A DNA stretch of 64,000 nucleotides, taken from Cohaesibacter marisflavi. Its GTDB lineage: Bacteria > Pseudomonadota > Alphaproteobacteria > Rhizobiales > Cohaesibacteraceae. Positions 50,315-64,000 of this stretch are shown piece by piece. Location: assembly GCF_900115225.1 (NCBI RefSeq), contig NZ_FOVR01000009.1, forward strand, positions 124,001-188,000, in the 5' to 3' direction. The position numbers and the translations under genes were made by a program. Below the pieces are notes generated by a model, which worked only from the letters and a program-made list of their open reading frames with translations, searched no databases and was not told the DNA's origin. Numbering within the stretch: position 1 is the first letter of the stretch; the number at the start of each line of letters is the position of its first letter.

Positions 50315-51094
50315 ATGCGATTTCCAGTTATAAAATCAACAGCTTTGACCGGAATGGGCATTCGTCACCAACAAGGAATGGCAAATATTTTGGCACCAAC
50401 TGTTCAAAATGATCCTTTTCTAGGCATCCTGATGCTGGATACACGTTTCAAGCGCCCAATCGGAGACGCGGGCAACGCCGCCAGTTATGCCATACCGGCC
50501 CGTATCGAAGTGATCGCCGGAGCGGGCAGTCCTGACATTGTCAGGAATGGGCGCCCTCTGCCGGGTCTGGTAGAAGCGTTCAAGGAGAAGGCGCGTAAGC
50601 TGGAACGGGAAGGCGCCTGCGCTTTGACCTCGACCTGCGGTTTTCTCGCGACCATTCAGAAGGAAATGGAAGAGACAGTCTCGATCCCCGTGATGCTGTC
50701 TGCGCTTTGCCTCTACACGGATATACGCTCCAAACATCCCGAGGGGCCGATCGGCATTCTCACGGCGTCCGCGAGAAGTCTGGGCGCAGACGTGCTCAAG
50801 GCCGCAAATATCAGGCCCGAGGATGTGATCATCCGCGGCATGGAAGATTGCCCCGCTTTTGCCACCGCCATTCTGGGCGCCAAGCAAGAGCAGTCATTGA
50901 AACTGGATCGGACAGCCATAGAGGCCGACATCATCTGCAAGGCGCAAGATATGCTCGCTCACCATCCAGATCTTGCGGCCTTTCTGCTCGAATGCGGCAA
51001 TTTGCCTCCCTATCAGCAGACCATAGGCAAGGCCACCGGCAAGCCGGTCTATTCCATTCTGGATGGGGTCAATGCCCTAATCAAAGGGCAATAA
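50315..51094 (+). CDS. Asp/Glu/hydantoin racemase-superfamily protein
   Basis: A protein of up to 259 residues of the two-Cys racemase fold. LGILMLDTRFKRPIGDAGNA opens the domain, the first active-site Cys is in ALTSTCGFLATIQKEM and the second in FLLECGNLPPYQQTIGKATG. Such enzymes epimerise acidic amino acids or hydantoins, isomerise maleate, or decarboxylate arylmalonates. The start is unclear: ATGs also occur 13 and 21 codons in, and AAGGA touches the third. It is divergent from the TRAP operon and convergent with the GntR gene. It may act on the TRAP substrate, but no evidence beyond position is visible. Confidence 0.82.
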   Translation: MRFPVIKSTALTGMGIRHQQGMANILAPTVQNDPFLGILMLDTRFKRPIGDAGNAASYAIPARIEVIAGAGSPDIVRNGRPLPGLVEAFKEKARKLEREGACALTSTCGFLATIQKEMEETVSIPVMLSALCLYTDIRSKHPEGPIGILTASARSLGADVLKAANIRPEDVIIRGMEDCPAFATAILGAKQEQSLKLDRTAIEADIICKAQDMLAHHPDLAAFLLECGNLPPYQQTIGKATGKPVYSILDGVNALIKGQ

Positions 51095-51130: not shown

Positions 51131-51808
51131 CTATAGATTCATGATATCGGCGGGCACTTCTTCAAGCGCGGCAAGATACTGATCATAGGTGTTGCCAAGC
51201 GTGTAGATATGTTTGCGCATCAGCTCGGCAGCCTTCTCCTCGTCACCTTCATCCATCGCGGCTAGAATATCGTCATGCTCTTGCATGGACTGCTCAAGGC
51301 GTCCGCTCACATCGAGCTGCTTGCGCCGGAAGGGTCTGAGGCGCCGGTGCATGCGCAAGGTTTCTTCTTCCAGCACCGCATTGCCCGAGGCCTGATAGAT
51401 CATGCCATGAAGCCTGTTGTTTGCTTCATAATAGTCATCATTCTTGCCTTCCTTCAGCGCCCGCGCGCAATCGCTCGCGGCACGCTTGAGATAAAGCTGC
51501 TGAGCTGAAGTGAGACGGCGGGTTGCCAGCTTGACACACCAGGCTTCCAACTCAGCCATGAATTCGAACATCTCCACAAGGCGGGTCATTGAAGGCCTGC
51601 GAACGAAGGCACCACGGTTGGGTATAAGTTCCACAAGACCGATGCCATCCAGAATCTGAAAGGCCTCTCTCAGCGGTGTGCGCGACACATTGAACTGCTC
51701 GGAAAGCGCAGCTTCATTGAGTTTTTCGCCATCTTTGTAGGCACCGGTGGCTATTTTCTGCTCAATTTCCGAGCAAATCAGGGCTGATGCTTTGTATTTA
51801 TTAGTCAT
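51131..51808 (-). CDS. GntR-family regulator with FCD effector domain
   Basis: A 225-residue repressor or activator. The N-terminal winged helix (IATGAYKDGEKLNEAALSEQ, FNVSRTPLREAFQILDGIGL) is followed by an all-helical FCD domain (about 85-215). There, Asp/His residues in YYEANNRLHGMIYQASGN and MQEHDDILAAMDEGDEEKAA can bind a metal and a carboxylic acid ligand. The ATG (MTNKYK) is chosen because a longer reading is a hydrophobic run with no domain. It is divergent from the long import and degradation operon and probably controls it. Confidence 0.93.
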   Translation of the reverse strand: MTNKYKASALICSEIEQKIATGAYKDGEKLNEAALSEQFNVSRTPLREAFQILDGIGLVELIPNRGAFVRRPSMTRLVEMFEFMAELEAWCVKLATRRLTSAQQLYLKRAASDCARALKEGKNDDYYEANNRLHGMIYQASGNAVLEEETLRMHRRLRPFRRKQLDVSGRLEQSMQEHDDILAAMDEGDEEKAAELMRKHIYTLGNTYDQYLAALEEVPADIMNL

Positions 51809-51822
51809 GGTACCATTATCGC

Positions 51823-51860
51823 TTGACAGTATACATTTCACACAGATTATATACAATCTT
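51823..51860 (+). promoter_or_regulatory. Promoter of the peptide-import operon with GntR-like half sites
   Basis: TTGACA at 51823-51828 is followed after 19 bases by TATATA (51848-51853). Two GTATAC/ATATAC words (51829-51834 and 51849-51854), 20 bases apart, overlap the promoter. TNGTATACNA-like words are common FCD-type GntR sites, so this is the likely operator region. Confidence 0.5.
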
Positions 51861-51920
51861 ATAAAAATCAATACAAATAACCTTCCAAGCACAAACCCGA
51901 GCTTCAACAGGGGAACGAAT

Positions 51921-53432
51921 ATGAAGATATCCAAACTGGTATTGAGTACTGCGGTCTACTTGGCGCTTTCGGCGACGTCCTACGCTGATAAAGCGAGCGA
52001 CACCGTCAATATGGCATTTCTGAAAGAACTCGAATCTGCCGACGTCTTTTTCAACACGGCACGCGAAGGTCTTCTTCTGAACAATTCGGTATGGGATGGT
52101 CTGCTTTATCGCGATCCAGACTCCGGTGAATATAAGGGCAACCTCGCAGAATCCTGGGAATGGATTAACGACACCACAATCGAATTCAAGCTGCGTAAGG
52201 GCATCAAATTCCACAATGGCGAGCCATTCAACGCAGATGACGTAGTCTACACTGTCAACTTCGTGTCTGACAAAGCCAATGGCGTGAAAAGCCAGACCAA
52301 TGTGAGCTGGATGGATCACGCAGAAAAGGTAGATGACTTCACGGTCCGTATCATTGCCGACGCTCCATTCCCGGCCGCTGAAGAGTTCCTCGCAGGCCCC
52401 GTTGCGATGTATCCCAACGAATACTACGCCAAAGTCGGCCCCAAAGGCATGGCTGCCCATCCAGTCGGCACCGGTCCTTTCAAGGTCACGGAGCTGGAAC
52501 CCGGCAAGCATTTTGTACTTGAGAAAAACGAAGACTATTTCAACGGCCCCAAAGGCATGGCCAAGGTGTCAAAAGTTGACATCCGCACCATTCCGGACAT
52601 GAACACCCAAATCGCCGAATTCTTCAACGGCACATTGGACTTCCTCTGGAACATCCCTGCCGACCAGGCTGAAAAGCTCGCCGCTATGGGCAAGTTCGAT
52701 GTGGTCAATGCTCCGGCAATCCGCGTTGGCTATATCACAATGGATGCTGCAGGCCGCTTTGATCCGGACGGCCCGATGACCAAGAAAAAGGTTCGTCAGG
52801 CCATCTATCACGCCATTGACCGCAAGGCGATCGTCGAAGCTCTCGTGAAAGGCTCTTCCACCGTCATCGACAGCGCCTGTTCTCCAGTTCAGTTTGCCTG
52901 TGCTCAGGACCTGCCGACCTACGACTATGACCCGGCAAAAGCCAAGGCCCTTCTGGCCGAAGCTGGCTATCCGGATGGCTTCACCACCGATTTCTATGCA
53001 TACCGCAACCGTCCGTATGCCGAAGCCATGATGGGCTTCCTTAACGAAGTCGGCATCAAGACCAACTTCAGCTACCTGAAATATGCTGCCCTGCGTGAGA
53101 AGCGCGCCAAGGGTGAAGTGCCGATTTCCTTCCAGACATGGGGCTCTTACTCCATCGCAGATGCGTCCGCCATTACCTCCGAATTCTTCACCGGCGGCGA
53201 CTGGGATGATGCCCGCGATCCGGAAATCAAGGAATGGCTGACGGAAGCTGACAAGACCACAGACAAGGAAGCACGTAAGGCCCTTTACAAAAAGGCCCTG
53301 ACCAAGATTGTCGAGGAAGCCTACTGGGTTCCGATGTTCACCTACAATGTGAACTACGCCATGAGCAAAGAACTCGATTACAAGGCAACCCCGGACGAGC
53401 TGGTGCGTTTCTTCACCTTCGGCTGGAAATAA
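51921..53432 (+). CDS. Peptide-type ABC transporter substrate-binding protein (family 5)
   Basis: A 503-residue periplasmic protein of PF00496. The signal peptide (MKISKLVLSTAVYLALSATS) is cleaved after SYA. Family features are VWDGLLYRDPDSGEYKGNLA, KLRKGIKFHNGEPFNADDVV, VGTGPFKVTELEPGKHFVLE and VRQAIYHAIDRKAIVEAL. Relatives bind peptides, glutathione, opines or nickel. GGGGAAC precedes the ATG by five bases. It is the first gene of a ten-gene run, so its ligand is probably what the downstream hydrolases and lyase break down. Confidence 0.95.
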   Translation: MKISKLVLSTAVYLALSATSYADKASDTVNMAFLKELESADVFFNTAREGLLLNNSVWDGLLYRDPDSGEYKGNLAESWEWINDTTIEFKLRKGIKFHNGEPFNADDVVYTVNFVSDKANGVKSQTNVSWMDHAEKVDDFTVRIIADAPFPAAEEFLAGPVAMYPNEYYAKVGPKGMAAHPVGTGPFKVTELEPGKHFVLEKNEDYFNGPKGMAKVSKVDIRTIPDMNTQIAEFFNGTLDFLWNIPADQAEKLAAMGKFDVVNAPAIRVGYITMDAAGRFDPDGPMTKKKVRQAIYHAIDRKAIVEALVKGSSTVIDSACSPVQFACAQDLPTYDYDPAKAKALLAEAGYPDGFTTDFYAYRNRPYAEAMMGFLNEVGIKTNFSYLKYAALREKRAKGEVPISFQTWGSYSIADASAITSEFFTGGDWDDARDPEIKEWLTEADKTTDKEARKALYKKALTKIVEEAYWVPMFTYNVNYAMSKELDYKATPDELVRFFTFGWK

Positions 53433-53441
53433 CGAGCAATC

Positions 53442-53464
53442 GGGGCCGGATACCATCCGGCCCC
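53442..53464 (+). other. Intercistronic hairpin after the family 5 binding-protein gene
   Basis: GGGGCCGGAT and ATCCGGCCCC form a perfect ten-pair stem with loop ACC, nine bases past the stop. It is followed by C-rich sequence, not T, so it should not terminate fully. Confidence 0.65.
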
Positions 53465-53499
53465 CACCCCTCCCCCAATAATGAGAATTCGAGGTCGGA

Positions 53500-54417
53500 A
53501 TGTATATCTATATTCTGAAACGGCTTGGTCTTGCCTTACTGGTGGCTTTCACCGTATCCGCAATCAGCTTCAGCCTGCTCTTCATGGCCGGTGATCCCGC
53601 CATCGCAATTGCAGGAGAAAACGCGTCCATGGAAGACATCCAGATGGTCAATGACCGCTATGGATTTGATCGCCCCATCGTCGTGCAATATTTCGAATGG
53701 CTGGGCAAGGCTGCCTCTGGAGACCTGGGCAACAGCTGGTATTTCGATCTGCCTGTTTCCGACCTCATTGTAGATCGCTTGAGCGTTACCATGCTTCTGG
53801 GATTGCTCAGCATCAGTTTCGCGCTTTTGCTGGCCATCCCCATGGGCGTTGCCGCAGCGATGAAACCAAACTCCCTCATCGACCGCGCCGCCCTGTTCAT
53901 CTCGGTGGTCGGTCAGGCCATCCCGTCCTTCTGGTTCGGGCTGATCCTGATCGTGGTCTTTTCCATCAAGCTGGGGCTTGTACCCGCCTCCGGCTCGACA
54001 AGCTGGGCTCATTTCATCCTGCCCACGATCGTTCTAGGCTATTACGCCACCCCGGCCATCATGCGCCTCACCCGAGCAGGCATGCTCGAAGTGTTGAGCG
54101 CAGATTATATCCGCACCGCGCGCGCCAAGGGGTTGGACAGTCGCAAGATCATGTTCAAGCACGCCCTGCGCAATGCCATCATTCCGGTGATCAGTCTTGC
54201 TGCCGTGCAGATGGGCTTCATGCTGGGTGGGTCCATTGTGGTGGAAAGCATTTTCGCGCTGCATGGCGCGGGCTTCCTCGCCTGGGAATCCATTTCCCGA
54301 AATGACCTGCCAACCATGCAGGCCCTCATCCTCATCTTCTCGATGTTCTACATCTTCTTCACCTTCCTGGCAGATATCCTCAACGCCTGGATGGATCCAC
54401 GCCTGCGCATCGCCTGA
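53500..54417 (+). CDS. Peptide-type ABC transporter permease (DppB type)
   Basis: A 305-residue inner-membrane protein with six helices. The N-terminal helix MYIYILKRLGLALLVAFTVS, the periplasmic segment NDRYGFDRPIVVQYFEWLGK and the coupling loop YIRTARAKGLDSRKIMFKHA are typical of DppB/GsiC. It pairs with the next permease. Confidence 0.95.
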   Translation: MYIYILKRLGLALLVAFTVSAISFSLLFMAGDPAIAIAGENASMEDIQMVNDRYGFDRPIVVQYFEWLGKAASGDLGNSWYFDLPVSDLIVDRLSVTMLLGLLSISFALLLAIPMGVAAAMKPNSLIDRAALFISVVGQAIPSFWFGLILIVVFSIKLGLVPASGSTSWAHFILPTIVLGYYATPAIMRLTRAGMLEVLSADYIRTARAKGLDSRKIMFKHALRNAIIPVISLAAVQMGFMLGGSIVVESIFALHGAGFLAWESISRNDLPTMQALILIFSMFYIFFTFLADILNAWMDPRLRIA

Positions 54418-54435
54418 TAGGGAACGGAGAAAATC

Positions 54436-55371
54436 ATGTCAGAGACATCCATCACCTCGGCCTCGACCGAGAAAAAGGCATCTGCCCCCAAAAAGCAGAA
54501 GACGCCGGTTCATCAGCTTTCACCGCGCGCCAAGATGTTGCATCGGGCGCTGCGCCACAAAGGCTTGCTGTTTGGCCTGTTCGTCATGGCGATCATCGTG
54601 ATTGTCGCCCTGTTCGCGCCGCTGCTTGCCGGTCATGACCCCTATAGCCAAAGCCTGCTCGCCCGCATGAAGCCGCCAGTCTTTCTTGGTGGCACATGGG
54701 AGCACCCACTCGGCACGGACGCCCTTGGCCGCGACTATCTTGCCCGCCTTGTCTATGGCGCCCGCATTTCGCTGCTGATTGGCCTCATCGCAGCCACTAT
54801 CTCGGCATGCATCGGCACCTTCATGGGCGTTCTGGCCGGCTATTTCGGCGGCCGTATCGACCTGATTGTGACCTTCTTCATCAATGTGCGCCTCGCCATG
54901 CCGGTGGTTCTGGTGGCGCTGGCTGTCGTGGCCCTGTTTGGCGGGTCTCTGCTCGTTGTCGTCTCCGTGCTTGGCCTGCTGCTCTGGGATCGCTTCGCCG
55001 TGGTCATGCGCGCAGCCACCATGCAGGTACGCAAGCTGGAATATGTTGCCGCAGCTCAAGTGCTCGGAGCCTCTCTGCCGCGCGTGCTTATCAAGGATAT
55101 CCTGCCGAACGTGATGAACCATCTGATCGTCATATTCACGCTTGAAATGGCCCATGCCATCATTCTTGAAGCCGCCCTCAGCTTCCTTGGCCTTGGCGTT
55201 CAGCCACCAACCCCGTCCTGGGGCCTGATGATCTCTGAAGGCAAAGAAATGCTGCTGTTCGAAAGCTGGCTGATCACCATCCCGGGTATCGCCCTGTTCT
55301 TTCTCGTCCTGTCCATCAACATGCTTGGCGACGGCATCCGCGACGTCACCGCACCGGAGGGCCGCAACTGA
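54436..55371 (+). CDS. Peptide-type ABC transporter permease (DppC type)
   Basis: A 311-residue permease. A Lys/Thr-rich cytoplasmic N-terminus of about 45 residues precedes the first helix. HPLGTDALGRDYLARLVYGA, YVAAAQVLGASLPRVLIKDI (coupling loop) and EAALSFLGLGVQPPTPSWGL are all hallmarks of DppC/GsiD. Its stop shares a base with the start of the ATPase gene (TGATG). Confidence 0.95.
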   Translation: MSETSITSASTEKKASAPKKQKTPVHQLSPRAKMLHRALRHKGLLFGLFVMAIIVIVALFAPLLAGHDPYSQSLLARMKPPVFLGGTWEHPLGTDALGRDYLARLVYGARISLLIGLIAATISACIGTFMGVLAGYFGGRIDLIVTFFINVRLAMPVVLVALAVVALFGGSLLVVVSVLGLLLWDRFAVVMRAATMQVRKLEYVAAAQVLGASLPRVLIKDILPNVMNHLIVIFTLEMAHAIILEAALSFLGLGVQPPTPSWGLMISEGKEMLLFESWLITIPGIALFFLVLSINMLGDGIRDVTAPEGRN

Positions 55372-57056
55372 TGACCGACCCTATTCTCACCATCAAGAAT
55401 CTGACCGTCGATCTGCCAGAAGGCGGCGATCGCCCCCATGCGGTCGAGAAGCTCTCGGTTGACATTGCCCCAAAGGAAATCGTCTGCATCGTCGGCGAAT
55501 CCGGTTCGGGCAAGTCCATCACCTCCTTCACCACCATGGGCCTCTTGCCGAAGGCTCTGAAGCCTTCAACCGGTGAAGTGATCTTTGAAGGGCAGGATGT
55601 GCTCAAGCTCTCCCCGAGGGAACATGCCAAGCTGCGCGGTAGCCGCATGGCCATGATCTTTCAGGAACCTATGAGCGCACTCAATCCCTGCTACACTGTC
55701 GGAGATCAGATCGAGGAAGTGTTCGAGCAGCATACCAGCCTGTCCAAAGCCGAACGCAAGGCCAAGACCATCAAGCTGCTGGACGAAGTACAGCTTCCGG
55801 AACCGGAACGGATCTACTCCTCCTATCCCCATCAGCTCTCCGGTGGTCAGCGCCAGCGCATCGTCATCGCCATTGCCCTTGCGCTCGATCCGTCCCTGCT
55901 GATCGCAGACGAACCGACCACCGCGCTCGACCTGTCCACGCAGGCCCAGATTCTCCATCTGTTCAAGGAACTGCGCGAAAAACATTCCGCCGGCATCATG
56001 TTCGTGACCCACGACTTCGACGTGGTGGCAGAGATTGCCGACAAGGTTGTCGTCATGAAAGAGGGCAAGATCGTTGAGCAGGGCACAGCCGAAGAAGTGC
56101 TCAACCGCCCCAAACATCCCTACACCCGCAAGCTGATTGACGCAGTGCCCCGCCGTACAGGCTCAGTGAATGCCCACATGACGGAAAAACACAAGGTGAT
56201 GGAAGTACTTGGCCTCAACAAGACCTTCCACACAAAGGGCACCATGTTCAAACCGTCCCGCACGGTGCATGCCTGCAAGGATATCAACTTCATCGTCCAT
56301 CGCGGCGAAACGCTGGGCATCGTGGGCGAATCCGGCTCGGGTAAATCAACGCTCGTCAAATGCCTCATTCGCCTTGAAGATCCAGACAGCGGCTCGGTCA
56401 TCATCGACGGCAGCGATATCGCGCAATTCACGCCAAAGCTACTGCATCCCTATCGCAAGAGCATCCAGATCGTCTTTCAGGACCCTTATGGCTCGCTCAA
56501 CCCGCGCCGCACGATCGGCGACCAGCTGGTAGAGGGACCGATCAATTTCGGCGAAGACCGCGCCCATGCCATGGAACGGGCCAAGAAGCTGATGGAAATC
56601 GTCCGGTTGGAGCAGGATGCGCTCTATCGCTATCCCGCCCAGTTCTCCGGCGGTCAGCGCCAGCGCATCTGCATCGCTCGCGCGCTGATGGTCGAGCCCG
56701 AAGTGCTCATTGCCGACGAAGCCGTCTCGGCGCTGGACGTGTCCGTGCAGAAGGAAGTGCTCAAGCTGCTCAACGAGATTCGTGATGAAATGGGCCTGAC
56801 GGTTCTCTTCATCACCCATGACCTGCGCGTTGCCGCCCAGATCTGCGACAATCTTGTGGTCATGCAGAATGGCGAAATCGTGGAACGGGGCAATGTCGAC
56901 GAAGTCTTCGGACATCCCAAACACGACTATACCAAGAAATTGCTCTCGGCCCAGCCCGGCCAGAACTGGAATGTCCCTGACATCTCCAAACTCCCCCCCG
57001 TTGATCCGGCTTTGCTGGATCAGGCCTTGAACCAGCCCATGGGGGCGGTCAGATGA
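55371..57056 (+). CDS. Peptide ABC transporter, fused double ATP-binding protein
   Basis: A 561-residue protein with two ABC domains. The first has Walker A GESGSGKSIT, signature LSGGQRQRIVIAIALAL and Walker B IADEPTTALDLS. The second has [33 protein letters not shown] and IADEAVSALDVS. In the second Walker B, Ala replaces the Pro of the usual DEP, a mild change that keeps the catalytic Glu. It is the same type as the ATPase at 107-1756. It energises the two permeases before it and overlaps the gamma-glutamyltransferase-family gene by four bases, which ties import to breakdown. Confidence 0.95.
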   Translation: MTDPILTIKNLTVDLPEGGDRPHAVEKLSVDIAPKEIVCIVGESGSGKSITSFTTMGLLPKALKPSTGEVIFEGQDVLKLSPREHAKLRGSRMAMIFQEPMSALNPCYTVGDQIEEVFEQHTSLSKAERKAKTIKLLDEVQLPEPERIYSSYPHQLSGGQRQRIVIAIALALDPSLLIADEPTTALDLSTQAQILHLFKELREKHSAGIMFVTHDFDVVAEIADKVVVMKEGKIVEQGTAEEVLNRPKHPYTRKLIDAVPRRTGSVNAHMTEKHKVMEVLGLNKTFHTKGTMFKPSRTVHACKDINFIVHRGETLGIVGESGSGKSTLVKCLIRLEDPDSGSVIIDGSDIAQFTPKLLHPYRKSIQIVFQDPYGSLNPRRTIGDQLVEGPINFGEDRAHAMERAKKLMEIVRLEQDALYRYPAQFSGGQRQRICIARALMVEPEVLIADEAVSALDVSVQKEVLKLLNEIRDEMGLTVLFITHDLRVAAQICDNLVVMQNGEIVERGNVDEVFGHPKHDYTKKLLSAQPGQNWNVPDISKLPPVDPALLDQALNQPMGAVR

Positions 57057-58630
57057 GTGGCAATTTCTCTCGCTCTCAATCCACCCGCAAACCGGGTGTA
57101 ACAGCAACAAGCGGCGGCGTTGTCGCCGCCCAACATGCTCTGGCCGCTGAAGCTGGAGCCCAAGTTCTGGCCGCCGGTGGCGACGCGGTGGACGCAGCCG
57201 TAGCCGTTAGTTTCGCCATCGGCGTGCTGGAGCCCTGGATGTCCGGCCCCATGGGGGGCGGCGCGATGATGCTCTGGCGAGCGGACGAGAAAAAGCCTTA
57301 TGCCCTACACTATGGCATGCGGTCCTCAACCAGCCTTGATGTGTCCCACTATCCCCTCTCTGGAGCAGGCAAGGCATCGGATCTCTTTCCCTGGGAAGCC
57401 GTGGTTGAGGATCGCAATGTCACAGGCGCATCCTCTATCGCCGTGCCCGGCACGGTGGCCGGTGCGGCAGAAGCCCATCGACGCTTCGGAAAGCTGCCAT
57501 GGCGTGATCTGCTGCAGCCAGCCATTGCCCATGCCAAAGCCGGCATGCATGTGGACTGGTACGCGGCCCTCATCATCGCCTCTTCGGCCAGAGAGCTGGC
57601 AAAGGACAAGGACGCCGCGGCATTGTTCCTTGAAGATGGTCAATGGCCCAAGATCTTTGGCTGGACGGCTCTTTCCGATATCCGCCTTGACCAGTCCGGA
57701 CATGCTGCAACCCTTGAGCGCCTTGCCGAAGCGGGAGCCGAGGATTTCTATACCGGCGACATTGGCGCGGCCCTTATCAAGGATGTAACCGACAAGGGCG
57801 GGTTCCTCACTGCCGAGGATATGGCCAGCTACCGCGCCGAGTGGCAGGATCCGCTGCATATCCCTTACAATGGCGCCAACATCTGGGCCGTTCCGACCCT
57901 CACTGCAGGCCCCACTCTTGCGCACGCCATAAGCCACTGGCAAAGCGCCTACACACCATCAACTGTGCCAGACGGAACGAGCTTTGCCGCCATGGCCGAA
58001 GCCATGCGTGCCGCCTATGAGGATCGCCTCACCAATATGGGCGATCATGAAAGCGCCAAGGCCCCGGGCTGCACCACCCATTTCTCCATCGTCGACAAAG
58101 ACGGCAACATGGTCGCCATGACGCAGACCCTGCTCTCCATCTTCGGCTCGCGCACCCTGTCGCCCTCCACCGGCCTGATGATGAATAATGGCATCATGTG
58201 GTTCGATCCCGAGCAGGGAAAACCCAATTCCCTGGCTCCGGGCAAACGCTGCCTGATGAATGTCTGCCCCGTGATTGGCGAAAAAGGCGAACGCCGTTTT
58301 GCACTGGGCGCTTCAGGCGGACGCAAGATCATGCCCGCAGTGGGACAAATCTCGTCATTCCTGCTTGACTATGGCATGTCAATGCAGGATGCCATAGAGG
58401 CCCCTCGTATCGACGTTTCAGGCGGCGACACGATCGTCGCCGACGAGCGCCTTTCAGATGATGTCACCGACGCCCTGTCGGCCCGCTGGTCTCTGGCAAC
58501 AGCAAAGCGCATGCCCTTCCCCTATGCCTTCGCCTGCCCGGCTGGCGTTTTGCGTGACGGAAGCACCAATTCCGGCACCACAGAAACCTTTTCCCCATGG
58601 GGCGATGGCATTGCAGAAGTCAGGGACTGA
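57053..58630 (+). CDS. Gamma-glutamyltransferase-family Ntn hydrolase, cytoplasmic
   Basis: A 525-residue protein of PF01019. The family start GVVAAQHALAAEAGAQVLAA and GGDAVDAAVAVSFAIGVLEP is clear. The self-cleavage nucleophile is T341 in GCTTHFSIVDKDGNMVAMTQ, followed by the oxyanion region LGASGGRKIMPAVGQ. It has no signal peptide, unlike the periplasmic GGT of E. coli, so it should act after import, like YwrD-type members. It would split a gamma-glutamyl or similar amide bond. Relatives also include cephalosporin and glutaryl acylases, so the exact bond is open. Translationally coupled to the ATPase gene. Confidence 0.9.
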   Translation: MSGNFSRSQSTRKPGVTATSGGVVAAQHALAAEAGAQVLAAGGDAVDAAVAVSFAIGVLEPWMSGPMGGGAMMLWRADEKKPYALHYGMRSSTSLDVSHYPLSGAGKASDLFPWEAVVEDRNVTGASSIAVPGTVAGAAEAHRRFGKLPWRDLLQPAIAHAKAGMHVDWYAALIIASSARELAKDKDAAALFLEDGQWPKIFGWTALSDIRLDQSGHAATLERLAEAGAEDFYTGDIGAALIKDVTDKGGFLTAEDMASYRAEWQDPLHIPYNGANIWAVPTLTAGPTLAHAISHWQSAYTPSTVPDGTSFAAMAEAMRAAYEDRLTNMGDHESAKAPGCTTHFSIVDKDGNMVAMTQTLLSIFGSRTLSPSTGLMMNNGIMWFDPEQGKPNSLAPGKRCLMNVCPVIGEKGERRFALGASGGRKIMPAVGQISSFLLDYGMSMQDAIEAPRIDVSGGDTIVADERLSDDVTDALSARWSLATAKRMPFPYAFACPAGVLRDGSTNSGTTETFSPWGDGIAEVRD

Positions 58631-58721
58631 CCTGACCTCTGCCCCCGCCATTGCCCTGAGCCCGCCCGGACGGTCGCCGCCCGAAACCGTTTAAAATTTG
58701 ACAAGAATAGAGAGCAGACAG

Positions 58722-60122
58722 ATGAGTGATCGCAATAAGGCTCTGGCCATCAGCGCCAGCTATTTTGATGAGGGCACCTTCCTCTCGGACATCAAGCGCC
58801 TTGTCTCACACCCGACCGAAAGTCAGGACCCGCGCGGCAAGCCTTATCTTCTGGCCTATCTCACGGACGAAATGCAGCCCCTACTTGAAGGCCTCGGCTT
58901 CAGCTGTAAAATCTTTGACAACCCTCAGGAAGATGCGCCTCCCATCATGGTGGCCGAGCGCATGGAAGATCCGGCCCTGCCAACGGTGCTGAGCTACGGT
59001 CATGGCGATGTCATCCGCGCGCAGGAAACCCAGTGGCGCGAAGGGCTCTCCCCCTTTGACATGGTTGAAGAGGGTGACAAGGTCTATGGCCGTGGCGCTG
59101 CCGACAACAAGGGCCAGCATCTCATCAACATCAAATCCATGGCGGCCGTCATCGAGGCAGAAGGCAAGCTGGGATTCAACGCCAAGATCCTGCTGGAAAT
59201 GGCTGAAGAGTGCGGCTCCCCTGGGCTAAAGACCTTCTGCGAACAGCATAAGGAGCTGCTCGCCGCCGATGTGCTCATCGCATCCGATGGCCCGCGCCTT
59301 TCCCCCGCAGCTCCAACCATCTTCACCGGCTCGCGCGGTGGCGAACTGTTCGACATGGTGGTGGACCTGCGTGAAAGTGCCAATCATTCGGGCAACTTTG
59401 GCGGCCTGATTGCCGATCCGGCCATCATTCTGGCCCACGCGATTGCTTCCATCACCGATGAACGTGGCCAGATCCAGATCCCAGAATGGCGCCCGACCAG
59501 CCTCACCCCGCGCATTCGCGAAGTGATCTCGGCGCTACCACCCGTCGACACTGGCTCCATCGAGATCGATGAGAACTGGGGCGAAGAAAGCCTCACCCCG
59601 CAGGAACGTGTCCTTGGCTGGAACAGCTTTGCCGTGCTCGCCATGAAATCCGGCGTGCCGGAGGCCCCCGTCAACGCCATTTCCGGCTATGCCAAAGCCA
59701 CCTGCCAATTGCGCTTCGTTGTTGGCACCGACCCCGATGACATTATTCCGGCGCTGCGTCGTCATCTGGCAGCCAAAGGCTTTGACAAGGTCGAGGTCGT
59801 CAAGGCCGAACGCCATGCCTTCCCGGCCACGCGCCTTGATCCGGACCATCCATGGGTCCGCTTTGCCGCCAAATCCCTCGAAGCATCCACAGGCACCAAG
59901 CCGCACATCCTGCCAAACCTTGGCGGCTCCCTGCCCAATGACTGCTTTGCCGATGTGCTGGGCCTGCCAACCATCTGGATTCCGCACAGCTATGCGGCCT
60001 GCAGCCAGCATGCCCCCAACGAGCATATCCTCAAATCCCTTTCCCGACAGGCCCTGCAAGGCATGACGGGGCTGTTCTGGGACATCGCCGCCAAAGGGGC
60101 GGTGCCTTCCGAAGGAGAATAA
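58722..60122 (+). CDS. M20-family metallopeptidase
   Basis: A 466-residue zinc peptidase of the ArgE/DapE/carnosinase group. Metal ligands are visible in YGHGDVIRAQETQW (His, Asp two apart), YGRGAADNKGQHL (bridging Asp), the Glu-Glu pair in EMAEECGSPG and the late His in CSQHAPNEHILKS. The lid/dimer domain lies at about 190-340. Enzymes of this group cut dipeptides or remove N-acyl groups. The ATG (MSDRNK) is used; a TTG eight codons earlier is less likely. It would be the second hydrolytic step after the GGT-family protein. Confidence 0.92.
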   Translation: MSDRNKALAISASYFDEGTFLSDIKRLVSHPTESQDPRGKPYLLAYLTDEMQPLLEGLGFSCKIFDNPQEDAPPIMVAERMEDPALPTVLSYGHGDVIRAQETQWREGLSPFDMVEEGDKVYGRGAADNKGQHLINIKSMAAVIEAEGKLGFNAKILLEMAEECGSPGLKTFCEQHKELLAADVLIASDGPRLSPAAPTIFTGSRGGELFDMVVDLRESANHSGNFGGLIADPAIILAHAIASITDERGQIQIPEWRPTSLTPRIREVISALPPVDTGSIEIDENWGEESLTPQERVLGWNSFAVLAMKSGVPEAPVNAISGYAKATCQLRFVVGTDPDDIIPALRRHLAAKGFDKVEVVKAERHAFPATRLDPDHPWVRFAAKSLEASTGTKPHILPNLGGSLPNDCFADVLGLPTIWIPHSYAACSQHAPNEHILKSLSRQALQGMTGLFWDIAAKGAVPSEGE

Positions 60123-60125
60123 AAC

Positions 60126-60941
60126 ATGGCAGCAACCCTCACGCTTTTTGCAGTCATCGCTGGCGCGGGTGCCATTGCGGGCATCATCTCAGGCCTTCTG
60201 GGCGTGGGAGGCGGTATCATCCTTGTGCCCGCCTTCTTCTATGCCTTCTCTTCTTTGGGTTACCAGCCCGAACAGCTCATGCAAATTTGCGTGGCGACTT
60301 CCACGGGCACCATCATATTCACCTCGATCCGCTCGGTGCTGGCACACAACAAACGCGGCGCGGTTAGCGTCGAGTTGATCAAGACATGGGGCCCGTTCAT
60401 TGCCTTTGGATCGGTGGTTGGTGTGTTCGCGGCAGCCTCCCTGCGCTCCCATGAGCTGCAACTTGTCTTTGGCTGCATCGGCATCATGCTGGGCCTTTAC
60501 ATGCTGCTCGGCAAGAAGGACTGGCGCCTTTCAACCGAATTGCCCGGCCGCATCCTCAGCAAGATCTACCCCATCATAATCGGCTTCTTCTCGGCTCTCA
60601 TGGGCATTGGCGGCGGCTCATTCACCGTGCCACTGCTGACCGCCTATAACGTACCCCCGCACAAGGCTGTCGGCACGTCCCCCGGCTTCGGGCTGATGAT
60701 TTCCATCCCCGGCTTCATCACCTTTCTCACGCAAGGCTGGGATATCACCGGCAAGCCTCCCTTCACCGTCGGCTATGTCAACCTGCCCGCGGTTGTCGTC
60801 ATCGTCATGACCACCATGCTGACCGTACCGCTTGGGGTGCGTCTGGCCCATTCCCTCTCGCCCAAGCAGCTGCGCATCGTCTTTGCCTTCACAATCCTTA
60901 TCCTGACAGGCAACATGCTCCGAAAGGCGCTGATGGCATGA
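60126..60941 (+). CDS. TauE/SafE-family membrane exporter
   Basis: A 271-residue membrane protein with about eight helices of PF01925. The two internal repeats begin ISGLLGVGGGIILVPAFFYA and ALMGIGGGSFTVPLLTAYNV, as in TauE, CuyZ and SafE. Members export sulfite, sulfoacetate or other organosulfur anions in several sulfonate pathways, though many are unassigned. It starts four bases after the peptidase gene and overlaps the lyase gene, so it belongs to the same pathway. If the pathway frees sulfite, this would be its exit route. Confidence 0.93.
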   Translation: MAATLTLFAVIAGAGAIAGIISGLLGVGGGIILVPAFFYAFSSLGYQPEQLMQICVATSTGTIIFTSIRSVLAHNKRGAVSVELIKTWGPFIAFGSVVGVFAAASLRSHELQLVFGCIGIMLGLYMLLGKKDWRLSTELPGRILSKIYPIIIGFFSALMGIGGGSFTVPLLTAYNVPPHKAVGTSPGFGLMISIPGFITFLTQGWDITGKPPFTVGYVNLPAVVVIVMTTMLTVPLGVRLAHSLSPKQLRIVFAFTILILTGNMLRKALMA

Positions 60942-62278
60942 CGCATTCTTCTCCTTTCCTCAGCAATGACGCCCTTCTAGAGCAGCTAAGGGCCGCAGAA
61001 CCAACCCTCTGGTGCAATCCTGATTATGCGCCCCAGCGTGACGATGAGGCGCAAGCTGGCTTGCAGCAGGCCGTCGAGAATTGGCGCATGCTGGCGCCAC
61101 TCCTCCAGCTTATTTTCCCCGAGCTGGAAGATACAGCTGGCACCATTACCTCCGATCTCATCGAAGTGGATGCTCTTCGCGCCCCTCTTGGTTATCTGGA
61201 TCGCACCTTCGGGCGCCTGTTTGTCAAGGCTGACCATGCCTTGCCGGTTGCCGGATCAGTCAAGGCCCGCGGTGGCATCTATGAGGTCCTCATGACCGCC
61301 GTGAATGAAGCCCGATCCTCTGGCTTCATCGCCCCCACGGATCCTGTCTCCGCCCTCACAGGCGCGGCCGCACACAGTTTCTTTGCCGAACGCACCATTG
61401 CTGTCGGCTCGACCGGCAATCTTGGTCTCAGCGTGGGCATTGCCGCCAGAACCCTTGGCTATAATGCCGTTGTGCATATGTCTGCCGACGCCAAGCCCTG
61501 GAAGATCGAGCGCCTGCGCCGCTTCGGTGTCAAGGTCAAGCAGCATCGTGGAGACTATAACCTCGCCGTTTCCGCAGCCCGTGATGCTGCCAGCAAAGAC
61601 CCTATGGTCTATTTTGTCGATGACGAGGATTCAGAGCTGCTCTTTTCCGGCTACAGCGCCGCTGCGCTGGAACTGGCGAGCCAGTTGATCGAGGCTGGCA
61701 TCAATATCGGCCCTGATTGCCCGCTCTTTCTCTATCTTCCCTGCGGCATCGGCGGCGCACCGGGCGGCATCGCCTATGGCGCGCGCGGTGTGTTTGGTTC
61801 CAATGTGCATTGCTTCTTTGCCGAGCCAGTGCAATCGCCTTCCGCTATGGTGCAGATGATGCATGGTCTGGAAAAGCCAATGTCTGTTTATGATATCGGC
61901 CTGACCAACAAGACCGAAGCCGATGGCATGGCGGTTGCCACCATGTCCCATATCGTTGCCCAGAAAATGCAGCAACGCCTTGCTGGCGTTTATACCGTTG
62001 GCGATGATGATTTGATGCGACTGCTCTCCATTGCCTACGGCGCAGCCAATCTCAAGCTAGAGCCCTCAGCCACCATCGGCTTTGCTGGCCCGCATTTCAT
62101 GCTTGAAACCGCGCAGGGTCAGGCTTTCAGCAGTCAGCATCTCACTCCCAAAGCGATGGAAAACGCAATTCATGTCGTCTGGACGACCGGCGGTTCTTTC
62201 GTTCCCGAGTTGCAATTCCAGTCTTTCGTGGACAAGGGCAATGCGCTTGCACCCCAATTCGATTTGAAAAAAGGATAA
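60938..62278 (+). CDS. dsdA: D-serine ammonia-lyase-type PLP enzyme
   Basis: A 446-residue fold-type II PLP enzyme. The Schiff-base Lys is K109 in LPVAGSVKARGGIYEVLM, the phosphate loop is GSTGNLGLSVGIAA, and LPCGIGGAPGGIAYGARGVF follows, all matching DsdA. Known DsdA enzymes eliminate water from D-serine to give 2-aminoacrylate, then pyruvate and ammonia. The N-terminal region (LWCNPDYAP) is also that of DsdA. Because of the sulfite-type exporter beside it, a beta-substituted alanine other than D-serine is possible. The RidA gene downstream fits an aminoacrylate-forming reaction. Confidence 0.9.
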   Translation: MTHSSPFLSNDALLEQLRAAEPTLWCNPDYAPQRDDEAQAGLQQAVENWRMLAPLLQLIFPELEDTAGTITSDLIEVDALRAPLGYLDRTFGRLFVKADHALPVAGSVKARGGIYEVLMTAVNEARSSGFIAPTDPVSALTGAAAHSFFAERTIAVGSTGNLGLSVGIAARTLGYNAVVHMSADAKPWKIERLRRFGVKVKQHRGDYNLAVSAARDAASKDPMVYFVDDEDSELLFSGYSAAALELASQLIEAGINIGPDCPLFLYLPCGIGGAPGGIAYGARGVFGSNVHCFFAEPVQSPSAMVQMMHGLEKPMSVYDIGLTNKTEADGMAVATMSHIVAQKMQQRLAGVYTVGDDDLMRLLSIAYGAANLKLEPSATIGFAGPHFMLETAQGQAFSSQHLTPKAMENAIHVVWTTGGSFVPELQFQSFVDKGNALAPQFDLKKG

Positions 62279-62283
62279 AGAAA

Positions 62284-63792
62284 ATGGTCAAGCAAACCGC
62301 GACGAACCCCGCAGATCTGGGCGCAATCGAGGCGCGTCAGCTGATCGCTCGCAAGGCCCTTTCTCCGGTTGAACTCGCCAATGCCTGCATCGAGCGGGTC
62401 GAAGCTGTAGACCATGCCGTCAACGCGCTGGTCGCACGCCGCTTCGAAGCCCTCTCAGATGAAGCCAAGGCCGCCGAGCAGGCCGTCATGGATGGTGAAC
62501 CGCTTGGAGCCCTGCATGGCCTGCCTTTCGGCGTCAAGGACATGATCGATGTGAAGGGCCTGCCGACCACCTTCGGCTCTGAGGCTTTCAAGGACAATAT
62601 CGCAACGCGGGATGACCCAATCGTTGCCGCCATGCGCAAGGCCGGCGCCATGCCCATGGGCAAGACCAACAATCCCGAATGGAGCGCAGGCGGCAACACC
62701 CGCAACCGGGTTTATGGCGTCACCGCCAACCCCCACGACCTCACCCGCACCTGCGCTGGCTCTTCAGGCGGGTCTGCCGTCAGCCTTGCCTGCGGTTATG
62801 CGCCCTTGGCAACCGGCTCGGACACGGGCGGCTCCCTGCGCAATCCGGCGGCTTTCTGCGGCATTGTCGGCTACCGCCCCAGCCCGGGCGTTGTCCCCGG
62901 CGATAGCCGCGCCGCAGCCCTCATTCCGATGCCAACCTCTGGCCCCATGGGCCGCACAGTTGCCGATACAGCCCTGATGCTCTCCGTTCTGGCACGTCCC
63001 GATGGCAAAGATCCCTATACCATCATCACTGATGGCAAGACCCCGTGGGATCCGGAAAGCTTTGCGAATCTGCCACGCGCAGATCTCTCTTCGCTCAAGA
63101 TTGCGGTGACCGAAGATTATGATTTCGCCCCGACGGAAAGCATCGTCCGCGATCATTTCCGAACGATAATGCCACAGCTGGCCCCCTTCTTTGGCACAAT
63201 CGAACAGACAAGCCCCAAATGCACGGACGCAGATCGCATATTTTCTGTGCTGCGCGGTGTTCAATTCTTGGGCATTCATGCAACTTTAGTAGACACCAAA
63301 CCCGAATTGGTCGGCCCGAACGCCACCGAGAATGTGAAAGAGGGCCGCAGCTATTCCGCCGAAGATGTCGCCCAAGCCATGTTCGCCCAGAGCCGTTACT
63401 ATCGCGACTGGCAGAAATTCTTTGAAAATCACGACTATCTGATCTCACCGGCTGTAACCATTAGCCCGCGCCCGTGGCGGGAGCTATATCCGGCTGAAAT
63501 CGACGGAAAGCCCACAAAGAGCTATTATCATTGGCTGGCCATGGCCTATGCCTCGACCATCCCCGGCCACCCATCCATCACAATTCCCTGCGGCTTTGAC
63601 GCCAACAACATGCCCTTCGGCCTACAGATTGTCGGGCGCCGCCACGATGATCTGGGTGTCCTTGCGGTCGCCAACGAGCTGGAAGCGATCATCGCGTCCA
63701 TTTCGGATCTCGCACCAAAAGGCCCGGATCTTGCATTGCTCAAATCGGCAGCGCCAATCAGCCAAGCCGAGGGGTTTTTGAGTTTCGAATAA
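62284..63792 (+). CDS. Amidase-signature family hydrolase
   Basis: A 502-residue amidase of PF01425. The Ser-cis-Ser-Lys triad is K85 (PFGVKDMIDV), S160 (CAGSSGGSAVSL) and S184 (GSDTGGSLRNPA), with spacings equal to those of FAAH and GatA. It is not GatA, as it lacks GatB/GatC partners. It would hydrolyse a carboxamide or N-acyl bond in the same pathway. It starts five bases after the lyase stop. The late position of an amide hydrolase is unusual for simple peptide use and hints at a substrate with more than one amide bond. Confidence 0.92.
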   Translation: MVKQTATNPADLGAIEARQLIARKALSPVELANACIERVEAVDHAVNALVARRFEALSDEAKAAEQAVMDGEPLGALHGLPFGVKDMIDVKGLPTTFGSEAFKDNIATRDDPIVAAMRKAGAMPMGKTNNPEWSAGGNTRNRVYGVTANPHDLTRTCAGSSGGSAVSLACGYAPLATGSDTGGSLRNPAAFCGIVGYRPSPGVVPGDSRAAALIPMPTSGPMGRTVADTALMLSVLARPDGKDPYTIITDGKTPWDPESFANLPRADLSSLKIAVTEDYDFAPTESIVRDHFRTIMPQLAPFFGTIEQTSPKCTDADRIFSVLRGVQFLGIHATLVDTKPELVGPNATENVKEGRSYSAEDVAQAMFAQSRYYRDWQKFFENHDYLISPAVTISPRPWRELYPAEIDGKPTKSYYHWLAMAYASTIPGHPSITIPCGFDANNMPFGLQIVGRRHDDLGVLAVANELEAIIASISDLAPKGPDLALLKSAAPISQAEGFLSFE

Positions 63793-63845
63793 CACCGTCT
63801 GAATCCTCCCGACTAAAGACCAAATAACCTCCCAAGGACTACACT

Positions 63846-64000
63846 ATGGCCAATCTACCCTTCTCCAAAGTCCGCCGCTCCGGCTCCACCGTCTATCTGT
63901 CCGGTGAAATCGGCTTCAATGCGGATGGCTCCCTGCCCGAGGGCATCGAAGCGCAGACCAAAAACTGCCTCGAAGGCATCAAGAAGACACTGGAAGGCGA
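63846..64000 (+). CDS. RidA-family protein, start only
   Basis: The first 51 codons of a gene that runs off the window. The translation (MANLPFSKVRRSGSTVYLSG, then EIGFNADGSLPEGIEAQTKN) is the N-terminal half of a YjgF/YER057c/UK114 (RidA) protein. RidA proteins hydrolyse reactive enamines and imines such as 2-aminoacrylate. In the same run as a DsdA-type lyase, it fits as the enzyme that clears its product. The key Arg near residue 105 lies beyond the window and cannot be checked. Confidence 0.85.
   Translation, partial: MANLPFSKVRRSGSTVYLSGEIGFNADGSLPEGIEAQTKNCLEGIKKTLEG

Follow-up and report, generated by a model that had tools for sequence, protein, structure and literature searches.

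A conserved, modular operon of Cohaesibacter marisflavi combining a family 5 ABC importer, three amidohydrolase genes and D-serine ammonia-lyase

The D-serine ammonia-lyase DsdA of Escherichia coli has DsdX and DsdC as its partners. A lyase of the same enzyme family, passing both curated cut-offs, is encoded by Cohaesibacter marisflavi in a stretch of 64,000 nucleotides (the window; positions 124,001–188,000 of contig NZ_FOVR01000009.1, G000:C11:124001-188000, assembly of 5.3 Mb), where, unlike the E. coli gene, dsdA sits within a putative import-and-deconjugation operon. This operon, which also includes genes for a gamma-glutamyltransferase (GGT)-fold hydrolase, an M20 metallopeptidase, a TauE/SafE protein, an amidase and RidA, is the subject of the present study. 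It is a real, conserved and modular catabolic operon. With a probability of about 50%, it takes up and deconjugates small D-amino acids that are N-acylated or bound in peptides.

Three further systems are related to parts of this locus. In the TRIS degradation cluster (mSHMT plus D-serine dehydratase), DsdA likewise forms the final step of a plasmid-borne catabolic patchwork; the upstream chemistry there is different, and the accessible text of that paper names no peptide importer, GGT or M20 protein (PMC10848231). The GGT family (PF01019; E. coli GGT, 4y23, HpxW 5hft and cephalosporin acylases) shares its fold and catalytic Thr with the GGT-fold protein of the operon, which differs in its substrate pocket, its score and the lack of a signal peptide. 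1-Aminocyclopropane-1-carboxylate (ACC) is the plant ethylene precursor and is destroyed by ACC deaminase (AcdS). The acdR/acdS unit of plant-associated bacteria, an Lrp-type gene beside an acdS with diagnostic residues, recurs in clusters described below, but is linked there to DsdA, TauE, M20 and importer genes, and in the window genome it is unlinked.

Organisation and conservation of the operon

The genes, their order and their strands are as given in the initial annotation, which described a single compact operon for import and hydrolysis, with 2-aminoacrylate chemistry and RidA at its end; this description stands. On the plus strand, an SBP_bac_5 periplasmic substrate-binding protein (SBP; 51921..53432; Pfam, signal peptide by eye) is followed by permeases of the DppB/NikB (53500..54417) and DppC/NikC (54436..55371) types, both assigned with Pfam and NCBIfam, and by a fused double ATPase with two ABC_tran stretches (55371..57056; Pfam). 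Next are the GGT-fold N-terminal nucleophile (Ntn) hydrolase (57053..58630; Pfam, alignment and structure model), the M20 metallopeptidase (58722..60122), the TauE/SafE family membrane protein (60126..60941; Pfam), DsdA (60938..62278), an amidase-signature hydrolase (62284..63792; Pfam) and RidA (63846..64181). RidA had been called correctly; the contig read beyond the window end (64000) adds that this gene runs past it and is followed by a DAO/DadA-like FAD oxidoreductase gene (64209-65456; L004 14209-15456). The operon thus has one gene more than first described.

The overlaps reported at 55371, 57053 and 60938 are real when read directly, being a single base at 55371 (permease and ATPase) and ATGA at 57053-57056 (ATPase and GGT) and at 60938-60941 (TauE and DsdA). 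The statement that there are no real gaps is nearly right, but 67 bp separate the SBP and permease genes and 91 bp the GGT and M20 genes (to the ATG at 58722).

The gene-order comparison called for in the initial annotation recovered the full set in eight Cohaesibacter genomes, the window genome counted, and the set with parts missing in Rhodobacterales. This recurrence shows that the arrangement is not due to chance.

A divergent GntR/FCD regulator gene lies upstream on the minus strand (51131..51808; Pfam FCD and GntR above cut-off, translation). Its longest open reading frame (ORF) reaches 51934 via TTG, and the ATG at 51808 is the likelier start by eye. With that start, the divergent region (51809..51920) measures 112 bp and holds one promoter-like site, TTGACA-16-GATTAT at 51823-51850, which is a consensus match only; the region as a whole has 8 such sites against 6.0 expected from shuffles. 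Immediately 3' of the DadA-like gene there is a perfect hairpin with a 9-bp stem (L004 15468-15488), which was scored terminator-like on the minus strand and has no T run after it on the operon strand.

Features of the lyase, the hydrolases and the binding protein

The window lyase scores 512.7 bits against NF002823 (cut-off 246) and 433.3 bits against TIGR02035 (cut-off 368.25), its best solved-structure matches are D-serine dehydratases, and it is the sole copy above cut-off in its genome. The DsdA copies of loci L169, L177 and L190 likewise exceed the D-serine ammonia-lyase cut-offs. CuyA and CuyZ are a known pair of a sulfite-releasing lyase and a TauE-type exporter. The 23 families listed for the lyase of the window do not include the cysteate sulfo-lyase model NF052482 (CuyA). 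A sulfur-releasing lyase with TauE as the sulfite exporter was rejected, since the enzyme is DsdA and L037 has TauE but no DsdA. TauE/SafE may, as a guess, export a by-product acid. The DadA-like enzyme, at 142 versus 383 bits, falls under the curated cut-offs for D-amino acid dehydrogenase.

The GGT-fold protein matches PF01019 with 339.2 bits (cut-off 27), but falls under the TIGR00066 cut-off (270.1 versus 357.85 bits). It had been described as leaderless, and by eye no signal peptide is present. Its predicted structure (pLDDT 88.4) matches GGT structures, with TM-scores of 0.83/0.79 against Bacillus licheniformis GGT 4y23. E. coli GGT was aligned with 79 subfamily sequences (the window protein and 78 matches of at least 380 residues at E 1e-30 or better; shorter ones were dropped). 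The nucleophile column, Thr391 in E. coli and Thr341 in the window protein, and the two oxyanion glycines are conserved in 79/79. The residues of gamma-glutamyl recognition in E. coli GGT are in contrast replaced across the 79 aligned sequences: Arg114 by Gly in 72/79 (Arg in 0/79), Asn411 by Leu and Asp433 by Trp in 79/79 each, Gln430 by Gly in 78/79, and Ser463 by Asn in 79/79. According to the accessible parts of PMC8062742, Arg114 and Asp433 have roles in gamma-glutamyl recognition, while extremophile GGTs lack one serine pair as well as the Arg, and Asp mutants retain part of the hydrolysis. The pocket changes therefore lower the probability of gamma-glutamyl substrates and do not exclude them. 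It is proposed that the GGT-fold enzyme widens the substrate range of the operon and is not its defining step. HpxW, an oxamate amidohydrolase, was considered as the closest relative and rejected (weak sequence match to 5hft, E 2.8e-11; rank 48 in the structure list).

A second GGT-family protein of the same genome (L001; G000:C32:35966-37435) also has no signal peptide by eye, adjoins a tripartite-tricarboxylate-type permease (by eye) and likewise has neither Arg in the column of E. coli residue 114 nor Asp in that of residue 433. The subfamily of the window protein was found in 32/61 genomes sampled from an order other than Rhodobacterales. In Bradyrhizobium L057, L058, L059 and L062, it stands after a RidA gene in a different neighbourhood.

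The M20 protein was assigned to PRK07079, an uncharacterised subfamily (692.7 bits, cut-off 330). The amidase lies below every cut-off of the 25 NCBIfam models shown for it.

For the binding protein, comparison was made with DppA, in which Asp408 is presumably the residue that binds the free amino end of the ligand. Among 20 SBPs the Asp408 column holds Tyr in 15, including the window protein, a gap in three, Arg in one, Phe in one and Asp in none, and the Arg355 column has gaps in 20/20, both in a low-identity alignment. The lack of an amine-binding Asp is as expected for an N-acylated ligand.

Upstream of the regulator lies a gene for an Asp/Glu-racemase-like protein that is not a member of the operon (50315..51094, plus strand; PRK07475 200.6 bits versus a cut-off of 231, Asp_Glu_race 25.1 versus 31). 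The gene stays near D-amino acid genes in several Cohaesibacter genomes even without the operon, and is near DsdA in L178 and L180, both of which lack the operon. The protein is possibly a neighbour of the D-amino acid module.

Distribution of the modules and linkage to ACC deaminase

Of 289 alphaproteobacterial genomes sampled evenly, two carry DsdA (E 1e-60), the window genome and G117, and both copies adjoin a family 5 importer and the M20 gene. The G117 locus (L169) has the order DsdA, acdR/acdS, LysR-type regulator (by eye), SBP, two permeases, M20 and ATPase, with neither GGT nor amidase; no GGT-subfamily match at E 1e-80 was found anywhere in G117. In the order, 19/397 genomes carry DsdA, and all 19 surroundings, of about 19–21 kb each, were examined. 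The full operon is present in eight, all Cohaesibacter and the window genome included. The locus of G585 (L179) has the operon in fragments, with acdR/acdS immediately beside GntR; several of its operon genes match in pieces only, which would fit decay, divergence or poor assembly. Other arrangements comprise acdS, acdR, DadA, DsdA, TauE and M20 (G084); DadA, the racemase-like gene, DsdA, TauE, acdR and acdS (G119); DsdA with DadA (G219, G582); and DsdA with acdR/acdS (G117, G684). DsdA is accompanied by TauE, DadA or acdS in the absence of importer and GGT in L177, L178 and L180, with M20, TauE, DsdA, DadA and acdS all joined in L177, and the D-amino acid module occurs without the importer, GGT and M20 unit in L178, L180 and L184. 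Among plasmids, six of the 60 records listed with DsdA (129 in total) were read. The Paroceanicella plasmid (L190) carries GntR, importer, M20, TauE, DsdA and amidase followed by acdS/acdR, with no GGT in the stretch; a Thioclava plasmid (L191) has DsdA and amidase without acdS, and in four further loci (L192-L195) both acdS and this M20 are lacking.

Neighbourhoods seeded with GGT comprised 48 named loci, 20 genome stretches and 11 plasmid regions, the latter from 11 of the 107 plasmid records with GGT; of 45 Pseudosulfitobacter records three were read. In GC-rich loci genes were called by codon scoring instead of the longest ORF. A GGT seed always retrieves GGT, so that this set cannot test GGT membership itself. 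Importer, M20 and amidase occur together in the Cohaesibacter set, in L037, L038, L040, L091, L116-L118, L120 and L179, and on the SMR1 plasmid when L119 and L175 are combined. Among such loci DsdA, RidA, DadA and TauE are variable: TauE is missing from L038, L040 and L118-L120, and L091 has amidase and DadA without DsdA. L039 holds GGT, M20, DsdA and amidase with a different kind of importer nearby, and L035 and L095-L097 have GGT and amidase without this M20.

The M20 gene was rejected as a marker of the pathway. It is present in 48/289 class genomes, and in the 31 that have both it and the GGT subfamily the two lie within 12 kb of each other in four, which speaks against a fixed link; this count was made by hand, and contig breaks may conceal some links. 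Also rejected was a link to kynureninase (by eye), which lies directly 3' of importer, GGT and M20 in Neptunicoccus and a related metagenome-assembled genome (L047 13144-14394; L048 13143), since it is on the same strand in these two loci only, from a single lineage.

The initial annotation had taken the locus as a single pathway and set against this the random loss of GGT, exporter or lyase genes from homologous operons. In its strict form that idea does not hold, as there are related operons without GGT, without TauE and without DsdA. These losses are more module-wise than gene-by-gene, as in the 18 loci with importer, GGT and M20 alone (L043-L052, L092-L094 and L121-L125) and in L177, L178 and L180.

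The acdS gene, found in 17/289 class genomes (E 1e-110), lies within 5/19 of the DsdA stretches of the order; these belong to two genera and show several gene arrangements. If acdS is taken to occur once per 4.5 Mb, each stretch to cover about 20 kb and kinship is ignored, the chance of this is 1.8e-8. Among 18 Cohaesibacter genomes counted by hand, acdS is present in 13/14 with DsdA (the exception is G288) and in 0/4 without (one-sided Fisher 0.0016, kinship ignored; one of the four is 64% complete). It is also near the operon on one of two Salipiger plasmids and in Sulfitobacter, Pseudosulfitobacter and Paroceanicella. The acdS of the window genome is 89% identical to the plasmid copy. The Lys, Ser, Tyr, Glu and Leu diagnostic of ACC deaminase, a rule taken from the available text of PMC4563596, are kept in 8/8 acdS products, the copy of the window genome included and those of L177-L179, L189 and L190 excluded, at the residue numbers given there or one residue past them. 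All four acdS products tested score above TIGR01274 (4/4). Judged from their residues, the linked products checked are ACC deaminases and not D-cysteine desulfhydrases.

An AceE-like or transketolase-like protein of about 795 residues adjoins acdS in three lineages (L117 20122-21560, L177 4706-7090, L190 12972-15362; 79% identical to the L190 copy). It may be the E1 component of a 2-oxobutyrate or pyruvate dehydrogenase.

Proposed pathway and alternative explanations

The best reading has D-serine as the foremost substrate, and ACC as a substrate in some lineages. The gene families suggest that the binding-protein importer would bring a conjugate in, and that any of three cytoplasmic amidohydrolases, the M20, amidase-signature and GGT-fold enzymes, could release the amino acid. 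DsdA would then convert released D-serine to pyruvate and ammonia via 2-aminoacrylate, RidA would remove this enamine/imine, and the DadA-like enzyme would oxidise other D-amino acids, while released ACC would yield 2-oxobutyrate where an ACC deaminase is linked or present elsewhere in the genome. This order of import, hydrolysis and DsdA, RidA and DadA steps is the one that family membership gives. We infer an N-acylated or peptide-bound D-amino acid as the imported compound from the D-specific enzymes, the three amidohydrolases and binding proteins without the Asp, and ACC as a further product from the acdS linkage. The accessible portions of PMC7820975, PMC4227472 and PMC7432710 indicate that ACC in plants is joined to malonyl, gamma-glutamyl and jasmonyl groups and that plant D-amino acids are malonylated; with both compounds conjugated by plants, one importer for both products would make sense. 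In the literature searched, with subscription papers mostly outside it, neither such an import-deconjugation pathway nor a link of acdS to such an operon was found; the one paper to name both acdS and dsdA, PMC4053727, has them in unrelated tables.

Several observations weigh against this assignment. At the thresholds applied, none of the 18 loci with importer, GGT and M20 contains a D-amino acid module gene, which means that the core functions without this module; DsdA is missing from the stretches L037, L040 and L091, and is without the partners described above in G288, G023, G070 and G106. In the window genome acdR/acdS is at G000:C19:151100, on another contig than the operon. The Salipiger locus L116 has the operon and no acdS within 10 kb, the genomes of L037 and L039 contain no acdS, and acdS is found in the genomes of 3/5 named long-operon loci versus 5/15 others, in 1/6 of the plasmid DsdA loci read (L190), and linked to M20 in 1/10 class genomes with both (G117 only). 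The linked cases come from few lineages. For none of the operon hydrolases was a characterised close relative found in the libraries searched.

General scavenging of D-amino-acid peptides, for example from peptidoglycan or microbial peptides and with no connection to plant conjugates, is possible though somewhat doubtful. It would fit the Dpp-like importer, the M20 dipeptidase-like fold, DsdA and the DadA-like enzyme, as well as the same GGT subfamily near other M20 and MlrC-like genes (L035, L042, L053 and upstream of L165; MlrC by eye), but leaves the repeated acdS and malonyl-CoA genes unexplained and does not agree with an SBP lacking the Asp presumed to hold free amino ends. Rather unlikely is the presence of two unrelated pathways under one promoter, an amide unit of importer, GGT and M20 and a separate D-amino acid module; each occurs alone, as seen in the 18 loci and in L178, L180 and L184, but their combination recurs in varied make-up (L190 without GGT, L169 without GGT and amidase, L091 without DsdA). 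The glutathione-conjugate or mercapturate-like route put forward in the initial annotation was based on the GGT and M20 families, a pyridoxal phosphate-dependent lyase with RidA and the TauE family name. Given pocket residues replaced in 79/79, a lyase that is DsdA by cut-off, clusters without GGT (L190, L169) and, apart from the TauE name, no pointer to sulfur in the operon, this route is very improbable. Glutathione chemistry is thus unlikely, and the other option of that annotation, gamma-glutamyl conjugates of D-amino acids, is favoured as to the D-amino acid; its gamma-glutamyl part finds the corresponding residues missing.

A more specific explanation, which we regard as speculative, is the breakdown of N-malonyl-ACC and N-malonyl-D-amino acids from plants or algae, perhaps also of gamma-glutamyl-ACC. 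After import, one hydrolase (the re-tooled GGT-fold, M20 or amidase protein) would remove the malonyl group, malonyl-CoA synthase (MatB) and malonyl-CoA decarboxylase (MCD) would burn malonate, and DsdA, DadA and ACC deaminase would burn the amino acid. Genes for MatB and MCD flank the operon in L038, L040, L118, L120 and the SMR1 plasmid (L119/L175), all of which have acdS and all of which are from Sulfitobacter/Pseudosulfitobacter. TauE and MatB/MCD are never together in any tabulated locus, as though each locus disposed of malonate either by export or by catabolism, and the binding protein without the amine-binding Asp would suit an N-malonyl ligand. D-Amino acids inhibit ACC malonylation, as seen by several laboratories according to the excerpts of PMC7820975 and PMC7432710. 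Against this, the MatB/MCD adjacency is confined to the one related group and absent from the other tabulated loci, the malonyl-CoA decarboxylase of the window genome is distant (53% identity) and unlinked to the operon, and these hydrolase families were not found to include a malonyl-amide hydrolase.

For the family, the operon shows that a protein which many alphaproteobacteria carry under the annotation gamma-glutamyltransferase may have no action on gamma-glutamyl compounds. According to the accessible text of PMC7820975, no other ACC derivative of plants is as abundant as malonyl-ACC. No account of its microbial use was found in the literature searched, and some copies of the operon are on plasmids of diatom- and mangrove-associated bacteria. 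With ACC deaminase and D-serine lyase tied to a single importer in one gene set, the use of malonyl-ACC becomes directly testable. Should the malonyl explanation hold, which is doubtful, the operon would represent a dedicated bacterial recycling of the conjugated ethylene precursor and of D-amino acids.

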